A stretch of 27,586 bases of DNA from a virus: IMG/VR virus record IMGVR_UViG_3300035199_000084, positions 1 through 27,586 of that record; one strand, written 5' to 3'. Both the position numbers and the translations under genes were made by a program. Below the pieces are notes generated by a model. That model did no database searches and was not told the origin of the DNA. It saw only the letters and a program-made list of their open reading frames with translations. Shown here piece after piece: positions 6,350 to 26,538 of the stretch (position 1 is the stretch's first letter; every line of letters begins with the position of its first letter).

Positions 6350-7341
6350 TGGCAACATTCACTCCATTTATGCAGGGATCAGAAGCGCAAGGCATCATCA
6401 GCAATTATCTTGGTGGTGGCTATGCTTCATCGCCCAATGTAAATACAGCAGGTCAATTTCGCAATCCCATTTTTGACATAAGAACACAACAGGAATTAGC
6501 AGGAGATTTAGATCCTTCAGCTTTATATCCAAATCCTCAAATAGATTTTTCCGTTCAAGAAGAAGATGAAATTGAAGATCCCTGTCCTATCGGTTATCAA
6601 TTAATTGATGGTGTATGTCAGCCAATAGAAAATTTTGATTATACCCAAAGATCTGCACAAGATCAAGGTGATGATGAAGAAGATGTCTTAACTTTTAGTG
6701 AACAAGAATATAACAGAATGAGAAGAGATCCCAGTAATCCTTTCGGAGCAGGAATTGAATTGGATAAATGGAAAGTGGAAGAAGATGAGTTTGGCAATAC
6801 AGTTTATAAATATAAAAAAAGAGGATTTGAACCAAATCTTTTTGGATTATTTGATGCTGTAACAGGTGGAAATAAAAGAAGAGAAGCAAAATTTAATGAA
6901 GCTATCAGGACAAAATTAGGACAAACACAATCGTCTAATTTTTTTGGAAAGAATATTAATCCATTAGCTTTTGGTTATCAGGATGATGATACATTTACAG
7001 AATATTCTCCACAGAATTATTTAGCACAAGTAAGCGATGTAAAAATTCCTGGAAGTAATCAAGGAGCAACAATGGGTGAATTACTTGCAACTGTTGGTCA
7101 AGGAACACAAGGAACACAACAAGTTAATACAGGACAACAAGGAACACAAGTATCACAAAATTTAGGAAGTCTTTTACAAGATAGTGGCAGAAGAGATGAC
7201 AATGCTTATGAAGCTGCCATTGCAAAAAACATAGCCAGAAATTTAGCCGATAGAGATTCAACAACAGGAAAGAAAAAATCAACTGCAAGTACAGGTAGTG
7301 GTTATTCTACATCTCTAGGTGGTTTTTATAAAGGCAGGTAA
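6349..7341 (+). CDS. Hypothetical protein with CPxGY motif
   Basis: A 330-residue protein between portal and scaffold. An acidic stretch (EEDEIEDP) leads into CPIGYQLIDGVCQPIE (about residues 78-93), a short two-cysteine motif of the form C-P-x-G-Y/F-x-x-x-x-G-x-C that recurs in marine phage proteins and resembles a minimal EGF-like turn. The second half is low complexity, with repeated QGTQ units (about 248-267) and a Gly/Ser-rich end, suggesting an extended, possibly virion-associated chain. No enzyme motif is seen. It is visibly more AT-rich in third codon positions than the portal before it. Both ends overlap neighbours by TAATG, so it is translated with the head genes. Confidence 0.7.
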   Translation: MATFTPFMQGSEAQGIISNYLGGGYASSPNVNTAGQFRNPIFDIRTQQELAGDLDPSALYPNPQIDFSVQEEDEIEDPCPIGYQLIDGVCQPIENFDYTQRSAQDQGDDEEDVLTFSEQEYNRMRRDPSNPFGAGIELDKWKVEEDEFGNTVYKYKKRGFEPNLFGLFDAVTGGNKRREAKFNEAIRTKLGQTQSSNFFGKNINPLAFGYQDDDTFTEYSPQNYLAQVSDVKIPGSNQGATMGELLATVGQGTQGTQQVNTGQQGTQVSQNLGSLLQDSGRRDDNAYEAAIAKNIARNLADRDSTTGKKKSTASTGSGYSTSLGGFYKGR

Positions 7342-17898: not shown

Positions 17899-19761
17899 AT
17901 GACAGTATCAAATTATAGCACCACAGCCGACAGCAATAGTACGATCAATTCGATCAACATTGCCGAAGGTTGTCCTCCATCGACCATAAATAACGCCATA
18001 CGAAATGAGTTGGCTGATTTAAGAACTTATCTCAATGACTCCTCGTGGTTTATTGTTGGAGACGGAGACGGAGCTTGTACTTTCACCTATTCAAGTGGAA
18101 CGGCTGTAACAGTCGCTTCAACCGATGTCACAACTGCACATCACGCCAACAGGAGATGCAAGGTTGTTGGATCTAATACTGGAACTATTTACGGATTTAT
18201 AGCTTCATCAAGTTTTTCAACGAATACGACAATTAATTTTACTTTTGATTCTGGATCAATCTCGGCTTCCGATGCGACAGTCGATGTTTATTTAGGATCT
18301 CCATACACGAACATTGCAACTTCCAACATCCCTGCAACAGCCGTAAGTGCAAAAACAACGATTACAAGCATAGATTCAGCTAATGACTATATGCTGATAT
18401 GGGATGCAACCGATTCAGCTTTGAAAAAAGCAACAGTAGCCAATACAGTTACGCACCAGGATTTAGACTTTGAAGGTGATAGTGGATCATCATCCGTTGA
18501 TTTAGATTCACAATCATTCGACATCGCAGGTGGAAGTGGAATTACAACAACGGCATCAGGGCAAACCCTGACTGTCGCAGGTGATGACGCAAGTACATCG
18601 GCAAAAGGTGTCGCTTCATTTTCATCAGATAATTTTTCTGCCTCATCTGGCGCAATTAGTATTAAAGATGCAGGGATTGCAAACGCAGAACTTGCTGATA
18701 TGGCAGCCAATACTGTCAAAGTAAGAAATGCAAACTCTTCTGGAGTTCCTTCTGACTTGGCATTAGCGACAACCGAAATAATGATTGGTGATGGAACTGG
18801 CTTCACAGCAGCAGCTCTCTCTGGTGATGCAACTATGACTAATGCAGGAGCAGTTACGATTGCTGACAACGCAATTAATTTAGCCAAACTCGAAGATGGA
18901 ACGCAAGGCGATATTTTATATTATGGTGCAAGTGGAACACCAACACGACTAGGTGCAGGAACATCAGGCGATGTACTGACAACTGGTGGAGGATCAGCTA
19001 ACCCTGCATGGGCAACTCCAACAACTGGCGATATAACTGGAGTAGGCGTTACTTCACCGATTACAGGTGGTGGAACAAGTGGATCTGTTACGATTGCCAT
19101 ACAGGATTCTTCAACAAGTCAAAAAGGAGCAGCAAGTTTCAGTTCAGATAATTTTGCAGCTTCATCAGGAAACATAACAATCAAGGATGCAGGTGTGGCG
19201 AATGCCGAACTCGCTGATATGGCTGCTAATACCATTAAGGTAAGAAACGCCAATTCAAGTGGAGTTCCATCCGATCTCGCACTCGCTACAACAGAAATTT
19301 TAATTGGAGACGGCACAGGATTTACTGCTGCATCGTTATCAAGCGATGTAACAATGACAAATGCAGGTGTTGTAACCATAGCAGCAAACGCAGTTACTTT
19401 AGCCAAACTTGAAGATGGCACTCAAGGAGACATACTTTACTACGGAGCTTCAGGCGCACCAACCAGATTATCGGCAGGTACTTCTGGCGATGTTTTAACT
19501 TCTGGAGGAGGATCGGCAAATCCTGCTTGGGCAACACCGACTACAGGTGACATCACAGGCGTTACGGCAGGAACAGGATTGTCTGGAGGAGGAACTTCAG
19601 GATCAGTAACATTGAATATGGCTGACACAGCCGTTTCAGCAGGATCATATACCAATTCTAGCATCACAGTTGATGCACAAGGAAGATTAACGGCAGCTTC
19701 ATCTGGATCAGCTAGTGGAGCAACACAGGGATTTGCAATTGCAATGGCAGTTGCGCTTTAA
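17899..19761 (+). CDS. Long tail fibre with internal duplication
   Basis: A 620-residue Gly/Ser/Thr/Ala-rich fibre. The N-terminal ~150 residues (SINIAEGCPPSTINNAIRNE, 18-37, then a beta domain) form the probable virion-binding head; the motif (I/V)AEGC-x-P-(S/G)-x-(I/V)NNA-(I/M)R is common in phage fibres. Two copies of a 150-residue unit follow (233-382 and 406-555), 132 of 150 residues identical by my count, each with KVRNANSSGVPSDLALATTE, IMIGDGTGFTAAAL-type and DGTQGDILYYG motifs. The C-terminus ends ITVDAQGRLTAASSG and a short hydrophobic tail. A ribosome site AAGGAAG precedes the ATG. It would trimerise and contact the host surface. Confidence 0.85.
   Translation: MTVSNYSTTADSNSTINSINIAEGCPPSTINNAIRNELADLRTYLNDSSWFIVGDGDGACTFTYSSGTAVTVASTDVTTAHHANRRCKVVGSNTGTIYGFIASSSFSTNTTINFTFDSGSISASDATVDVYLGSPYTNIATSNIPATAVSAKTTITSIDSANDYMLIWDATDSALKKATVANTVTHQDLDFEGDSGSSSVDLDSQSFDIAGGSGITTTASGQTLTVAGDDASTSAKGVASFSSDNFSASSGAISIKDAGIANAELADMAANTVKVRNANSSGVPSDLALATTEIMIGDGTGFTAAALSGDATMTNAGAVTIADNAINLAKLEDGTQGDILYYGASGTPTRLGAGTSGDVLTTGGGSANPAWATPTTGDITGVGVTSPITGGGTSGSVTIAIQDSSTSQKGAASFSSDNFAASSGNITIKDAGVANAELADMAANTIKVRNANSSGVPSDLALATTEILIGDGTGFTAASLSSDVTMTNAGVVTIAANAVTLAKLEDGTQGDILYYGASGAPTRLSAGTSGDVLTSGGGSANPAWATPTTGDITGVTAGTGLSGGGTSGSVTLNMADTAVSAGSYTNSSITVDAQGRLTAASSGSASGATQGFAIAMAVAL
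18595..19044 (+). repeat. Fibre repeat unit, copy 1
   Basis: A 150-codon unit of the long fibre, from TSAKG to TGDITGV. It aligns without gaps to the copy at 19114-19563, differing at 18 of 150 residues by my count, but a large share of synonymous codons differ. Confidence 0.9.
19114..19563 (+). repeat. Fibre repeat unit, copy 2
   Basis: Second 150-codon unit, from TSQKG to TGDITGV. Between 19240 and 19299 it encodes the same 20 residues as 18721-18780, yet 13 of the 20 codons are spelled differently. At DNA level it is therefore a strongly diverged repeat. Confidence 0.9.
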
Positions 19762-19787: not shown

Positions 19788-20126
19788 GTGGCTCAAGATT
19801 TTGAAAAAGCATATAAATCGCAAGTTACAACTTCTGCCCATACATTAATTACATCCAATTCTGATGATGCGATTATTGGTATTCGCCTGACGAATATCAC
19901 TTCATCTGCCATCACAGTTGACTGTTGGATTGATGTGGCAGCAGCAGGAAGTACAGCGTCAATTGTTTACTTGGCTGATGATTTAAGCATTGCACCAAAA
20001 TCAAGTGTAGAGCTTATTCAAGGCGGAGCAAAAGTTGTTATTCAAAGCACAGATTTATTACGGGTACAAGCATCGGCTGCAACTTCATGTGCAGCTTATG
20101 TAAGTTACATAGACGCAATTAGTTAA
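19788..20126 (+). CDS. Small beta-rich fibre-region structural protein
   Basis: A 112-residue protein with GTG start, supported by AAGGAG seven bases upstream. It begins MAQDFEKAYK and continues in short strands (IIGIRLTNITSSAITVDCWI, about 28-47; SVELIQGGAKVVIQSTDLLR). The 'IxGxxLxNxTxxxVxVdV' strand pattern and the 'G-x-(K)-V-V-(L/I)-x-x-x-D-x-(L)-x-V' pattern are typical of small phage tail or fibre accessory proteins. It probably sits at the fibre base or tip. The next gene starts 11 bases downstream behind its own ribosome site. Confidence 0.7.
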   Translation: MAQDFEKAYKSQVTTSAHTLITSNSDDAIIGIRLTNITSSAITVDCWIDVAAAGSTASIVYLADDLSIAPKSSVELIQGGAKVVIQSTDLLRVQASAATSCAAYVSYIDAIS

Positions 20127-20137
20127 GGAGAAATAAT

Positions 20138-20317
20138 ATGGCTGAAACAAAAGATCAAAACGGAACTCTGTACATTGGTCAGGAAAGTGCCAAAGATGGA
20201 ATTTTTACCCATCAGGCAACCATAGACGGAAATCATTACATAGATAGTGCTGTTGTGGCAGGAACTGTCACTTTCACAGGCACAGTAACAGTAACAGGAA
20301 ATTTGGTAATAGTGTGA
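20138..20317 (+). CDS. 59-residue fibre-like structural protein
   Basis: Starts MAETKDQNGT behind an AAGGAG ribosome site with an eight-base gap. The second half is a beta repeat (VVAGTVTFTGTVTVTGNLVI, about 39-58) of the kind that forms short trimeric beta stems at the ends of phage fibres. Its stop overlaps the GTG of the next fibre gene (GTGTGA), so the two are translationally coupled. It may be a free-standing fibre anchor, or the remnant head of a longer fibre that was split from the following gene. Confidence 0.7.
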   Translation: MAETKDQNGTLYIGQESAKDGIFTHQATIDGNHYIDSAVVAGTVTFTGTVTVTGNLVIV

Positions 20318-20871
20318 GTACATTAAACGTAGATAAGGTAGATCCCAGTACAGGCACGGCTTTAGAAATTGGCACTTCTGGTGATACGATCAATGTACCC
20401 TCTGGTGTAACTTTAGATATTAATTCTGGAGCGACACTGGATGCGACAGGAGCAACTGTAACTGGTACTATTGGAAGAGTTTTGCAAGTAGTTCAAGGAA
20501 GTATAAATACTGAAGCAAGTACAACAAATGGAAGTTTTGTAACAACAGGACTTTCTGTAGATATTACACCTAGTTCATCAAGTAACAAGGTATTAGTATT
20601 ATTTAATGGTGTTGGTGGAACAAATGATACTGATGGTAATTATTTTACTCTTTATAGAGATTCAACAAATTTAGGTGGTGGTAGTGGTCATGTTAGAATG
20701 AAAGGAGTTTCAGGTGGTTTTCAATCTGGAATATCTATGTCTGAATTAGATTCCCCATCAACAGCTTCACAAATTAGCTATGTAGTAAGATTTGCACAGG
20801 CTGGTGGAACAGCAACAATATCTACTGGAGATACAAAATCAACAATTACAGCAATGGAGATTGCAGTATGA
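20314..20871 (+). CDS. Tail fibre, cassette 1
   Basis: A 185-residue fibre with GTG start coupled to the previous stop. The N-terminal region LNVDKVDPSTGTALEIGTSG (4-23) and DTINVPSGVTLDI are the typical marine phage fibre anchor. The stem is short (GATLDATGATVTGTIG). The C-terminal domain begins RVLQVVQGS (about 55) and contains VDITPSSSSNKVLVLF and ELDSPSTASQISYVV, ending TITAMEIAV. This C-terminal beta domain, with a (R/K)(V/I)LQVV opening, ITP-x-S-x-SNK and a terminal AMEI(A/G)V, is shared by all three cassette fibres and is a plausible receptor-binding head. It overlaps its partner gene by four bases (ATGA). Confidence 0.8.
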   Translation: MSTLNVDKVDPSTGTALEIGTSGDTINVPSGVTLDINSGATLDATGATVTGTIGRVLQVVQGSINTEASTTNGSFVTTGLSVDITPSSSSNKVLVLFNGVGGTNDTDGNYFTLYRDSTNLGGGSGHVRMKGVSGGFQSGISMSELDSPSTASQISYVVRFAQAGGTATISTGDTKSTITAMEIAV

Positions 20872-21179
20872 AAACAGTTTCAGAAGCAATACTGGTTATC
20901 AATCCAAAAGCCGAATTTACAGTACATAACAATCTTGATTTGGATAATTGTGAAATAGTATGGCATGAAGATACAACACCAATATCAAAAGCAGACATTC
21001 AAACCAAACTTGATGAACTTCAGGCAGACTATGATGCTTTAGATTATGCCCGAAAAAGGAAAGAGGCATACCCCGACATATATGATTACATGGACGGAAT
21101 AGTTAAGAACGATCAAACGCAAATAAATAAATACATAGCTGACTCACAGGCAGTTAAAGTTAGATACCCCAAAGGATAA
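20868..21179 (+). CDS. Fibre partner/chaperone, cassette 1
   Basis: A 103-residue protein. The N-terminal half, VSEAILVINPKAEFTV then NCEIVWHEDTTPISKADI, resembles XkdW-type tail assembly proteins (an AI-x-x-(I/L)-x-P-x-A-x-F block then IEW-x-D). The C-terminal half, LQADYDALDYARKRKEAYP (about 53-71), then a helix and a final RYPKG, is shared with the partners at 21877 and 22941. Because each partner follows one fibre, a dedicated fibre chaperone or capping role is likely but unproven. The start overlaps the fibre stop (ATGA). Confidence 0.7.
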   Translation: MKTVSEAILVINPKAEFTVHNNLDLDNCEIVWHEDTTPISKADIQTKLDELQADYDALDYARKRKEAYPDIYDYMDGIVKNDQTQINKYIADSQAVKVRYPKG

Positions 21180-21182
21180 ACA

Positions 21183-21875
21183 ATGGCAGAACTAAGAGTA
21201 AAAGGAACAGGCACTTTAAAGCTATTTGAGAGTGATAACACAAGTAGTGTTACCATCGCCTCTCCTGCAAGTCTGGGTGCTGACAGGACAATCACACTCC
21301 CTGACGCAAGTGTAACTTTAGCAAGTGGTACTATGCTGGCAACAGATGGATCAGGAGCTAGTTTAACAGCTCTCAACGCATCAGAACTCGGATCAGGAAC
21401 TGTTCCAACAGCAAGACTTGGAAGTGGAACGGCATCCAGTTCTACAGTACTGTATGGCGATCAGACTTACAAAGCAGAGCCTGGTGGTGGAAAGGTATTA
21501 CAGGTTGTAAATTATAGTTTGACTGATAGTAGTGGCATATCAACAACAAGTACATCATATGTTGCTGCTACAGGTGTGGAGGTAGATATTACACCATCTG
21601 CCACAAGTAGCAAAGTTTTAATTCATTTTGTGTCAGGAAATACTTACAAATCGTCTGGTAATTTATATTTTGGACTATATAAAGATGGTAGTAAAGTTGC
21701 AGATATTGGAAAAACTTATAATAGTGTACCTATAGCGTTTCATTATTTAGATTCACCTAGCACGACTTCTGCAATTACTTATGAAATTTATTATTATGCT
21801 AGTACTGGAACAGCATATCTAAAAAATAATGCAAGTAATGCTGTCATTCTTACAGCAATGGAAATAGGAGTATAA
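21183..21875 (+). CDS. Tail fibre, cassette 2
   Basis: A 230-residue fibre starting three bases after the preceding stop. Its N-terminus (MAELRVKGTGTLKLFESDNT, 1-20, then TITLPDASVTLASGTML) differs from those of fibres 1 and 3. A 49-residue linker at 61-109 (LTALNA to LQVV) is 45/49 identical to fibre 3. The receptor-like C-terminal domain starts GGKVLQVVNYS and carries VDITPSATSSKVLIHF and LDSPSTTSAITYEI, ending LTAMEIGV. Anchor, linker and tip thus have different relatives: a domain-swapped fibre. Confidence 0.8.
   Translation: MAELRVKGTGTLKLFESDNTSSVTIASPASLGADRTITLPDASVTLASGTMLATDGSGASLTALNASELGSGTVPTARLGSGTASSSTVLYGDQTYKAEPGGGKVLQVVNYSLTDSSGISTTSTSYVAATGVEVDITPSATSSKVLIHFVSGNTYKSSGNLYFGLYKDGSKVADIGKTYNSVPIAFHYLDSPSTTSAITYEIYYYASTGTAYLKNNASNAVILTAMEIGV
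21363..21509 (+). repeat. Shared fibre linker, copy in cassette 2
   Basis: 49 codons from LTALNA to KVLQVV, including GSGTVPTARLG and VLYGDQTYKAEPGGG. They match 22351-22497 at 45 of 49 residues with many synonymous differences. Confidence 0.85.
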
Positions 21876-21876
21876 A

Positions 21877-22182
21877 ATGGAAATAGATAATAAAGTAGAT
21901 AGACATTTTGCAATCAGAAATACACATCCAACTGTTGTAACTATTTCTGGAGATACAGAAGCCCTAGATGAAAATGGTATTGCAGTTGCATTAGATGAAT
22001 CACTAATTTCTACAGAGATGGATAGACTACAAGCAGAGTATGATGCTTTAGCTTATGCAAGAAAAAGAGAAGCTGAATATCCAAAGATTGGCGATCAATT
22101 AGATAAAATATATCACGAAGGAATTGACGCTTGGAAAGCAGATATGATAACACCAATAAAAAATAAATACCCAAAGGGATAA
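21877..22182 (+). CDS. Fibre partner/chaperone, cassette 2
   Basis: A 101-residue protein one base after the fibre stop. The N-terminal half (HFAIRNTHPTVVTISGDTEA, about 10-29) is unlike the partners in cassettes 1 and 3. The C-terminal half (MDRLQAEYDALAYARKREAE, about 47-66; YPKIGDQLDKIY; end KNKYPKG) is the same family. A constant C-terminal module with changing N-termini suggests that the N-terminal half is matched to its own fibre. Confidence 0.7.
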   Translation: MEIDNKVDRHFAIRNTHPTVVTISGDTEALDENGIAVALDESLISTEMDRLQAEYDALAYARKREAEYPKIGDQLDKIYHEGIDAWKADMITPIKNKYPKG

Positions 22183-22185
22183 ATA

Positions 22186-22941
22186 ATGGCATCAATATTA
22201 AAAGTAGATAAACTCGATCCCCAAAGCGGAACGGCTCTGGAGATTGGCACATCAGGAGATACGATTTCAGTACCAAGTGGAGCAACGCTAGATATTAGTT
22301 CTGCCACGCTTACACCTCCTGCGACACTTCCTGCAAGTAGTGGAGTTAATTTAACGGCACTCAATGCAACAAATTTAGGAAGTGGAACTGTACCAACAGC
22401 TCGGCTAGGCACAGGAACTGCATCAAGTTCAACAGTATTATATGGAGATCAGACCTACAAGGCAGAGCCAGGCGGGGGGAAGATTTTACAGGTGGTTCAA
22501 ACAACTGCAACTTCCGCATCAACTCATAGTACTGTTTCCACTTACACAGCCAGTAATGTATCAGGAGCAATCACGCCTACAGCAGCTTCATCAAAAATTT
22601 TTGTTTCATTCTTTTGGTTGGGAACTACTAGTAACGAACCAGCACAACTTTCAGGCGGTGCTGCAAAAATTTATCAAGACATAGATTCGGGTGGTTATGC
22701 AGCACTTTACCCATCTTCAGTCGGTGGTATGCAGTTTCGGATCACAAGAGAGGTTGGAAGCGGAGGTTTAAGTATAAGAGCTTATCAAAATATTACTTAT
22801 TTAGACTCACCATCTTACACCCTGACAGATGTGATAACTTATAAACTTTATGCTGCGGCTGGTTCTAGTGGCTGGGGCAATTATTATGTTTGTCCAGATG
22901 GAGATAGTGCAAGTGTAATTTTAATGGAGGTAGCAGCGTAA
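22186..22941 (+). CDS. Tail fibre, cassette 3
   Basis: A 251-residue fibre. The anchor (ILKVDKLDPQSGTALEIGTS, 4-23, then GDTISVPSGATLDIS) is of the fibre 1 type. The linker (56-104) is of the fibre 2 type. The tip begins GGKILQVVQTT, then ITPTAASSKIFVSFFW, and ends with SYTLTDVITYKLYAAAGSSG and VILMEVAA. The tip is larger than those of fibres 1 and 2, with an extra Gly/Ser-rich part (SGGAAKIYQDIDSGGYAALY, about 157-176). The stop overlaps its partner's ATG (TAATG). Confidence 0.8.
   Translation: MASILKVDKLDPQSGTALEIGTSGDTISVPSGATLDISSATLTPPATLPASSGVNLTALNATNLGSGTVPTARLGTGTASSSTVLYGDQTYKAEPGGGKILQVVQTTATSASTHSTVSTYTASNVSGAITPTAASSKIFVSFFWLGTTSNEPAQLSGGAAKIYQDIDSGGYAALYPSSVGGMQFRITREVGSGGLSIRAYQNITYLDSPSYTLTDVITYKLYAAAGSSGWGNYYVCPDGDSASVILMEVAA
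22351..22497 (+). repeat. Shared fibre linker, copy in cassette 3
   Basis: The counterpart of 21363-21509: 49 codons from LTALNA to KILQVV with four residue differences by my count and many changed synonymous codons. Confidence 0.85.
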
Positions 22942-23306
22942 TGGAAGATTATAAAAAATTCGCAGATGCGTTGAATAACTTAAAACCTGAAGCTGGATTT
23001 TGTTATCGTGACAATTATCCAATGACGGAAGAAAAGTATGCGACAGTAGAATGGATGACAGGAGTTGAAGCAGATGGTGAGACAGCCATAACAACGACAG
23101 TCAATCCTCACCCTGAACTCACTTGGTCAGCAGTCAATGCTGAAATGACACGACTTCAAACTGAATATGACGCACAGGATTATGCTAGAAAAAGACAGGC
23201 TGAATACCCTTCCGTACAGGATTTAGTTGTTGCTTTGTATGACACGGATGACAAGGCTGCCATTGAAGCTAAACGAGCAGAAGTGAAAGCGAAGTATCTT
23301 AAATAA
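22941..23306 (+). CDS. Fibre partner/chaperone, cassette 3
   Basis: A 121-residue protein coupled to fibre 3 by TAATG. The N-terminal half (FADALNNLKPEAGFCYRDN, 6-24; ATVEWMTG) is of the XkdW-like type seen in cassette 1, but with a longer insertion (GVEADGETAITTTVNPHPEL). The C-terminal module (MTRLQTEYDAQDYARKRQAE, about 69-88; YPSVQDLVVALYD; end KYLK) is shared with the other two partners. The stop overlaps a 24-residue cysteine-rich ORF (TAATG). Confidence 0.7.
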   Translation: MEDYKKFADALNNLKPEAGFCYRDNYPMTEEKYATVEWMTGVEADGETAITTTVNPHPELTWSAVNAEMTRLQTEYDAQDYARKRQAEYPSVQDLVVALYDTDDKAAIEAKRAEVKAKYLK

Positions 23307-25208: not shown

Positions 25209-25913
25209 ATGAATACAAAATCAATACTTATTTTAAGCGATACGCATTTTCCATATCAACATCTTAATTATTTTGAATGGATAAAAAAAATTAAAAATCA
25301 TATCAAACCAACTCGTGTGATTCACATTGGGGATGTGATTGACAATGCAAGTATTATGGTAGAACGACCTGCCGATCCAAATGTTGAAAGTCCAATATTT
25401 GAATTGGCAAGTGCCAAAAAAGAAATTCGCAAGTTGGAGAAAATTTTTCCAAAGATGGACATTCTTTTCGGCAACCACGACTTACGCATTATGCGAAGAG
25501 CCGAGAGATTCGGCATACCTCGTTCAATGCTCAAAGACTTAAATTCTATTTATGAGATCAAGTCTAAATGGCAATGGCACGACAAGCTGAACATTAATTT
25601 GCCTAACAAAACAAATGTGTTATTCACGCATAATTTCAAGAATAATATTTTAGCCAGTTCAAAGGAGCTTGGCTGTTCTTTTGTTTGTGGACATTTCCAT
25701 ACCCAGAGCTTAATTTCTATGTGGTCATCACCCACAGCATTGAATTTTGCTATGTGCGTTGGAAGTTCCATTAATCCCAAAGCTGAATCAATGCGCTACC
25801 AAAAAAACTTTATTAAACGACCGATAATTAGTATAGGTGCAATAATAAATTCACAGCCAGTTATTTATGCAATGCCTCTCAATGACAGAGGAGAATGGAC
25901 TGGCGCAATATGA
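25209..25913 (+). CDS. Calcineurin-like metallophosphoesterase
   Basis: A 234-residue metal-dependent phosphoesterase. All core motifs are present: SDTHFP (10-15), GDVIDN (41-46), GNHD (88-91), FTHN (139-142) and GHFH (161-164), so the two-metal site looks intact. The substrate cannot be told; phage members include nucleotide and nucleic-acid phosphatases. Between motifs lies a helical insert (AKKEIRKLEKIF, about 69-80). It starts 46 bases after the previous stop, one of the larger gaps in this region (which has GATTAGGAG-like purines upstream), and its stop overlaps the next gene (ATGA). An accessory metabolic gene or repair-type role is inference. Confidence 0.85.
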   Translation: MNTKSILILSDTHFPYQHLNYFEWIKKIKNHIKPTRVIHIGDVIDNASIMVERPADPNVESPIFELASAKKEIRKLEKIFPKMDILFGNHDLRIMRRAERFGIPRSMLKDLNSIYEIKSKWQWHDKLNINLPNKTNVLFTHNFKNNILASSKELGCSFVCGHFHTQSLISMWSSPTALNFAMCVGSSINPKAESMRYQKNFIKRPIISIGAIINSQPVIYAMPLNDRGEWTGAI

Positions 25914-26122
25914 CAACACAAGATCCTTTGGTTCAACACTTAATGGATAAAATGGCTTCTCGTTCCGAAGCAGGAATTAACAAATACAAGAACACAATGG
26001 TCACGACTCAAATGGGTGCTGTCGCAGCAATCGATAACGCCATCGAGGAGTGTTTAGACCAAGCCGTGTATCTGGAAAAAGCAAAAAGGGAGTTGCAGGA
26101 AAAATGGACATTGAAGCACTGA
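25910..26122 (+). CDS. Small MazG-like/EE-motif protein
   Basis: A 70-residue helical protein starting MTTQDPLVQH at an ATG overlapping the phosphoesterase stop (an upstream ATG at 25895 is less likely). SRSEAGINKYKNTM (about 23-36) and AIDNAIEECLDQAVYLEKAK (45-64) reproduce the R-x-x-x-G-x-x-KY ... AIEE-x-(L)D-x-x-x-YL pattern of short phage proteins related to the all-alpha NTP pyrophosphatase (MazG) core. The EE-x-x-D part of the metal site is visible; whether it is active is unknown. It overlaps the lysozyme start by 19 bases. Confidence 0.65.
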   Translation: MTTQDPLVQHLMDKMASRSEAGINKYKNTMVTTQMGAVAAIDNAIEECLDQAVYLEKAKRELQEKWTLKH

Positions 26123-26538
26123 AGGATTCCATTAAATCCCATGAAGGAGTAAGAAACCAGGTTTACAAAGACCATTTAGGCAACAGAACCATTGGCTATG
26201 GACACCTGTGTTTGGATCACGAAAAATGGGATGACAATAAAATTTATCCAAGAAAAGTCATAAACAGGACATTTGAATACGATTTCAACATATCCCTTAA
26301 TGACGCAAAAAAATTAATTGAACAAGAGAGCATTCATCCAGACGCATTCGGTGTCTTGGTGAATATGTGCTTTAACATGGGAAGTCCACGAGTGTCAAAG
26401 TTTCAAAAAATGTTAGCTGCTTTGGAAGTACAAGATTATAAAACAGCATCAACGGAAATGTTGGACAGTAGATGGGCATCTCAAGTTCCCAACAGGGCAA
26501 GGGAATTATCGGAGATTATGAAACAATGTTCAAGCTAA
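26104..26538 (+). CDS. Endolysin, T4-type lysozyme (GH24)
   Basis: A 144-residue muramidase that cuts peptidoglycan between NAM and NAG. From the ATG at 26104 the catalytic triad is E14 (SHEG), D23 (YKDHLGN) and T29 (RTIGYGH), with the exact E-x8-D-x5-T spacing of T4 lysozyme. The C-terminal SRWASQVPNRARELSEIM matches the T4 SRW-x-x-Q-(T/V)PNRA block. It has no signal peptide, so it needs the holin for release. The frame continues upstream to 26050, but those codons overlap the previous gene and do not belong to the fold. A 32-residue membrane peptide overlaps its 3' end. Confidence 0.93.
   Translation: MDIEALKDSIKSHEGVRNQVYKDHLGNRTIGYGHLCLDHEKWDDNKIYPRKVINRTFEYDFNISLNDAKKLIEQESIHPDAFGVLVNMCFNMGSPRVSKFQKMLAALEVQDYKTASTEMLDSRWASQVPNRARELSEIMKQCSS

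Follow-up and report, generated by a model that had tools for sequence, protein, structure and literature searches.

The question raised by IMG/VR virus record IMGVR_UViG_3300035199_000084, a linear marine phage sequence of 27,586 bp which is considered here at its full length and referred to as the window, is what role is played by the small protein encoded directly behind each of three tandem fibre genes at positions 20314-23306, and which part of this array is exchanged between phages. These small proteins, here called partners, are probably tip-specific fibre chaperones acting in trans, of the type of Pam3 gp25 and Mu Tfa, with the fibre tip and the N-terminal domain of its partner as the unit of exchange. 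The region would form a rack with three slots for short trimeric receptor-binding fibres, in which a slot-specific N-terminal anchor would attach each fibre to the virion and the C-terminal tip has a predicted TNF-like lectin fold; the fibres of slots 2 and 3 also possess a linker.

Fibre tips and the N-terminal domains of their partners

The open reading frames (ORFs) of the three tandem fibre/partner pairs proposed by the sequence-only reading were confirmed at 20314-23306, all of them on the plus strand. Fibre 1 (slot 1; 185 amino acids (aa), 20314..20871) comprises an anchor (20314-~20414) and a tip of the DSP/TNF-like type (20473-20868) and is followed by partner 1 (103 aa, 20868..21179). 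Fibre 2 (slot 2; 230 aa, 21183..21875) has the anchor MAELRVKGTGTLKLFES, a linker (~21351-21488), and a tip (21489-21872), and precedes partner 2 (101 aa, 21877..22182), while fibre 3 (slot 3; 251 aa, 22186..22941), with the anchor MASILKVDKLDPQSGTALEIG, a linker (~22339-22476), and a tip (22477-22938), precedes partner 3 (121 aa, 22941..23306). The fibre and partner genes are coupled at their junctions, each pair overlapping by 4 or 1 nucleotides (nt) or lying 1 nt apart.

The only block common to all three partners is a hinge of about 19 residues, LQxxYDAxxYARKRxxxYP (~21018-21074, ~22027-22083, and ~23154-23210), the DNA of which occurs three times in the window (62 nt, 77% and 65%). The N-ends in front of it all differ, being of type A in partner 1 (~20868-21017), type B in partner 2 (~21877-22026), and type C in partner 3 (~22941-23153). 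The constant C-terminus claimed by the sequence-only reading shrinks to the hinge: the last ~30 residues form three different C-modules, gamma (DIYDYMDGIVKNDQTQ.., ~21075-21176), alpha (IGDQLDKIYHEGIDAWK.., ~22084-22179), and beta (VQDLVVALYDTDDKAAI.., ~23211-23303), each of which recurs on other partners elsewhere. Beyond the window, N-type A is found in HTVC010P and HTVC106P as well as in HTVC203P, where it sits on another C-end, N-type B in P-SSP7, MEP402, MEP301, DC33, L097, and L098 (L numbers denote loci of surveyed relatives), and N-type C in P-SSP3 and Lederberg. All three partners match phrog_9114, a PHROG family whose function is listed as unknown (E 1.6e-18, 4.1e-19, and 4.9e-11 for partners 1-3), the match being confined to residues 12-100 of partner 2 and 45-119 of partner 3. 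An XkdW-like N-end had also been attributed to partners 1 and 3, whose N-ends differ; XkdW (PF09636) gives no match for partners 1-3 in Pfam even at E<=1 and one among 66 relatives (E 1.6e-4), and membership of this family was dropped. Limnohabitans phage DC33 (L010, PQ492659.1) bears Inoviridae in its taxonomy line yet has a 39-kb genome with tailed-phage-like fibre/partner genes, and the label looks wrong.

The tip is predicted to be a TNF-like beta sandwich, as in the trimeric lectin tips of the BC2L-C N-domain and PLTL. The AlphaFold model of the fibre-2 tip is a ten-stranded sandwich (pLDDT 93), closest by Foldseek to TNF-like trimeric lectins (2wq4, 9ib9) and Pgp3 with TM scores of 0.59-0.76. 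The sole solved relative by sequence is orf22 in PDB entry 9efk, a 658-aa protein solved with 18 chains, the C-terminus of which is matched by the tip family at E 1.6e-21.

Eight IMG/VR scans, which started from partners, fibres, anchors, the upstream gene, and a tail gene, yielded about 310 loci. The first 238 sources contain 314 partner ORFs, 295 of them immediately preceded on the same strand by an ORF of 80 aa or more, and the pairing statistics were based on 218 nonredundant fibre/partner pairs, using single-linkage clusters and C-types assigned by pattern. Partner N group 0 accompanies 114/116 DSP tips and N group 1 accompanies 71/72 GYK tips, tip and N-domain sharing 1.08 bits of mutual information compared with 0.036 after shuffling. 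Since the scans selected mostly on partner type and not on tip type, this association is not made by sampling; shared ancestry and linkage can inflate it. As a control for genome-level ancestry, 31 loci hold both the DSP and the GYK pair type, and crossed pairs among them number 0. The C-modules of the partners mix, N group 0 being found with at least six of them, and within DSP pairs the similarity of tips is correlated with that of N-domains (r 0.257, 0/500 shuffles), the corresponding values being r -0.02 for tip and C-module and r -0.03 for N-domain and C-module. Within GYK pairs, N-domain and C-module go together (r 0.70).

Peptidase_S74 fibres and the putative role of the partners

Three fibres lacking a partner score above the Pfam cut-off for Peptidase_S74 (PF13884), the domain of fibres with an intramolecular chaperone, and a profile made from these three retrieved 21 nonredundant S74 fibres. 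Fibres of this kind can take up the equivalent slot in a related rack (slot 2 of L099). The 21 fibres, which have their chaperone in cis, are followed by a phrog_9114 partner in 0/21 cases, as opposed to 131/149 for DSP fibres (p 2e-16, without phylogenetic correction, as for the other test given here). Within racks, all five S74 fibres (5/5) run directly into the next fibre, whereas other fibres are then followed by a small gene in 75/94 cases (p 6e-4). In the mechanism proposed, the N-terminal domain of the partner would recognise the tip family, and its helical C-module would trimerise and nucleate folding of the fibre trimer, doing in trans the work of the S74 domain found in other fibres of the same racks.

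Precedents for such a division of labour exist. In Pam3, the variable beta N-domain of gp25 grips the fibre tip and its helical C-domain trimerises, giving a 3:3 complex; gp25 resembles intramolecular chaperones and was not detected in virions (PMC9608196). The likeness to Pam3 gp24/gp25 lies in a small, here presumably trimeric, fibre with a TNF-like tip and in a two-domain helper with a variable beta N-part and a helical C-part. Pam3, in contrast, has one pair, a gp25 of 162 aa, and a fibre (gp24) with a glycine-rich tip, whereas the window has three slots and helper C-modules that tend to remain in their slot. Another relative in kind, Mu Tfa, is likewise encoded with its fibre and modular, its variable part fitting the fibre and its conserved part driving assembly, in the comparison with gp25 made in PMC9608196. 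Mu Tfa is reported to remain on the fibre, and the partners here have no match to a Tfa family in Pfam. In the Alteromonas phages A5 and V22, also marine, a fibre and a downstream chaperone with DUF4376 form a module common to distant phages (PMC10579305, PMC7289586): V22 needs gp27, the product of the gene immediately behind the fibre gene, for an active fibre (PMC7289586), and fibre and chaperone modules move between distant phages (PMC10579305). Those chaperones differ in being larger (195-239 aa, DUF4376), in having been described with a single fibre, and in being shared as whole modules rather than as a tip and the N-half of a chaperone. The fibre regions of P-SSP7 (gp37-gp41) and HTVC010P (gp25-gp33) have the same partner family and tandem small genes, P-SSP7 also the same DSP tips, but they have several fibres per partner and other anchors. 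In HTVC010P (gp27-gp29, L006 6265-7411), the fibre preceding partner gp29 appears to have suffered a frameshift, since a separate short ORF at 6951-7088 encodes the GYK end; this points to either a sequencing error or a broken fibre.

The partner family is tied to annotated fibre-assembly proteins by a natural chimera, L011 6996-7337, in which N-type A is fused to Phage_tail_APC (PF16778) above the Pfam cut-off (43 vs 26.6 bits); the partners of the window have no Phage_tail_APC match at E<=1, and neither they nor 66 relatives match DUF4376 or a Tfa-type chaperone in Pfam. The AlphaFold model of partner 1 (pLDDT 96) starts with a helix, followed by strands at residues 17-20 and 29-32 and four helices from residue 41, a predicted layout of small beta N-domain and helical C-domain like that of Pam3 gp25. 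Against viral structures, the partner model gives three matches below E 0.001, all to uncharacterised or unnamed proteins, and, at E 0.023, a weak one to a protein resembling tail assembly chaperones; to Pam3 gp25 there is neither a sequence match nor, in the PDB at E<0.001, a fold match. As a separate observation, a partner that has a WRQSLRDIP...IWSKP-type end and is related to Phage_tail_APC stands behind fibres ending in an lYG-type strand (L065, L099, L104, L112, and L229) and behind an unclassified fibre in L217; the copy of the L217-type partner in L216 matches Phage_tail_APC at E 0.0011, which is below the cut-off.

Several observations weigh against a chaperone role for the partners. 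No chaperone family matches those of the window in Pfam (E<=1) or NCBIfam, and their fold has no PDB match at E<0.001. Recognised small genes are missing behind 19/94 non-S74 rack fibres, and behind the S74 fibre of L214 lies an unrelated ORF of 105 aa that has no homologue among the loci. Runs of DSP fibres stand before a single partner in P-SSP7 and Lederberg, and in HTVC-type phages a single partner of type D is often preceded by two GYK fibres. Within GYK pairs the correlation of tip and N-domain is weak (r 0.10, 35/500 shuffles), and since the two adjoin in DNA, linkage alone could hold them together. The earlier view that each fibre has a dedicated partner thus holds for the pairing in the window and fails for P-SSP7 and Lederberg; successive fibres with like tips may share one helper.

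Were fibre and partner tied by gene order only, the partner would function otherwise, for instance in regulation of a late operon, and its association with the tip would be hitch-hiking. Such a reading draws on the contiguity just mentioned and on the lack of a functional annotation for the partners in PHROGs, but it is very unlikely given that the association spans unrelated tip families and holds inside single loci carrying both, that partners and S74 domains exclude each other, and that the Phage_tail_APC chimera exists. It is also improbable, if somewhat less so, that the partner belongs to the virion, where it would remain on the fibre tip as an adaptor or cap and participate in receptor binding. 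Its N-domain is matched to the tip, Mu Tfa and S16 gp38 are reported to stay bound to their fibres (PMC7289586), and A5-type chaperones have been proposed as transient caps (PMC10579305); S74 fibres in the same slots, however, do without a partner, which is easier to reconcile with a task in folding than with one in binding, and Pam3 gp25, which covers receptor loops, was not found in virions (PMC9608196). The chaperone reading is favoured by the pairing of tip and N-domain, by the absence of partners after S74 fibres, by the chimera, and by the precedents of Pam3 gp25 and V22 gp27, in line with the chaperone-like partners suggested before. Because the partners of the window match no known chaperone family by sequence, they would be said to work like gp25-type chaperones rather than to be members of such a family.

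The three-slot rack and the candidate unit of exchange

Relatives of the rack were collected independently of the partner by means of the upstream gene at 19788-20126, anchor classes being assigned by pattern. The order of the rack is anchor 1 (VDKVDP), anchor 2 (KLFES), and anchor 3 (VDKLDP), and seven nonredundant loci including the window have all three in the order 1-2-3. L213 deviates with the order 1-3-2, L228 and L216 lack or break a slot, and a sister group has three anchors of its own, seen as b1-b2-b3 in ten loci. The cargo of the slots, that is, tips and partners, varies between relatives. The comparison of number and order in relatives accordingly returned something other than the same three genes throughout, the slots being mostly fixed and the tips and partners not, which agrees with the proposed modular, putatively receptor-binding array with exchange.

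Blocks of DNA matching between the window and its relatives extend from the hinge and C-module of a partner across the junction to the anchor and linker that come next, ending at the tips. In fibre 1 the similarity ends at ~20414, and the anchor and linker of fibre 2 are common to many loci, its tip not. The beta C-module belongs to 13/20 slot-3 partners and to 0/25 in slots 1 and 2 (p 1e-6); it is combined with each of the N-types A to D, and the partner carrying it is the last in 22/22 nonredundant cases. In the sister racks (L262, L267, L271, L314, and others), the last slot has its own C-module, VVALWEGVVEERM, which is related to beta and stands last in 10/11. L213 provides a counter-case to position, since there the slot-2 C-module stays with anchor 2 although this is now last, so that in this locus the module tracks the anchor. 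From these patterns we infer that the exchanged unit consists of the fibre tip and, across the gene boundary, the N-domain of the partner, with anchor and C-module tending to stay in the slot, and not of the whole cassette of fibre and chaperone as had been supposed. Recombination between phages would swap this block between conserved flanks, anchor and linker upstream and hinge and C-module downstream, and the tip would move jointly with the chaperone part by which it is recognised.

Slot-specific C-modules could conceivably be orthogonal trimerisation domains that prevent mixed trimers of related, co-expressed chaperones, letting the rack accept any unit of tip and N-domain without cross-talk, an idea that we regard as rather doubtful. 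Partners residing together share similar C-modules in 3% of cases compared with 7.9% expected (20/300 permutations), a weak trend to avoidance.

The sequence-only reading had the array grow by cassette duplication. Similarities among the fibres (E 2e-20 for fibres 1 and 3, 1e-35 for 2 and 3, and 2e-17 for 1 and 2) and among the partners (E 4e-14 to 2e-8) are far above chance, so that the shared blocks it described are real; its different tips are not unrelated, tip 1 and tip 2 being 37% identical over 138 aa, and the three are divergent members of one tip family. Whole cassettes duplicated recently within this phage would account for the similar anchors of fibres 1 and 3 and the similar linkers of fibres 2 and 3, which are identical at 47/53 residues. 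The two linker copies, however, agree at just 13/30 fourfold sites, near saturation at synonymous sites, and on this ground recent duplication was rejected; moreover, the slots have distinct anchors in an order conserved across the clade, and both N- and C-modules differ among all three partners, leaving such an origin with hardly any probability.

Fibre chaperones, modular chaperones, and module transfer are already known. A limited literature search did not find a multi-slot rack with a chaperone gene split between cargo and slot, or the replacement of cis by trans chaperoning within one slot. The present reading would supply a rule, open to testing, by which abundant marine phages may exchange tips while keeping fibre assembly intact: a tip and the front half of its chaperone would move together, across a gene boundary, into conserved slots. 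For PHROG family 9114 it proposes a function, and it suggests that between related phages chaperoning in cis (S74) and, putatively, in trans substitute for one another within a slot.

Racks also contain long fibres of 400-461 aa (slot 1 of L030, L104, L222, and L227; slot 3 of L110), followed by a small ORF with an (N)xxYQ...WxAxGNTIEEAD-type end. The long fibres of L030 and L222 match phrog_4492, and the small ORFs behind them have 60-66 aa. Small ORFs with this motif are perhaps another partner family.

Surrounding genes

The record includes genes for a portal protein, a terminase, and a major head protein, the portal protein being closest to those of podovirus-type phages, both marine and freshwater. 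Upstream of the rack and likewise on the plus strand lie a fibre-like protein of 620 aa (17899..19761; phrog_38058 tail fiber protein, E 6.6e-17), a conserved virion-type gene of 112 aa (19788..20126) with homologues before the fibre arrays of relatives, and a 59-aa protein (20138..20317) conserved at the head of a- and b-type racks, directly before slot 1. Downstream of the rack are genes for a metallo-phosphoesterase and an endolysin-like lysozyme (25209-25913 and 26050-26538), and directly before the terminase a 192-aa gene at 2460-3038 matches phrog_799, phage DNA methyltransferase (E 2e-54).

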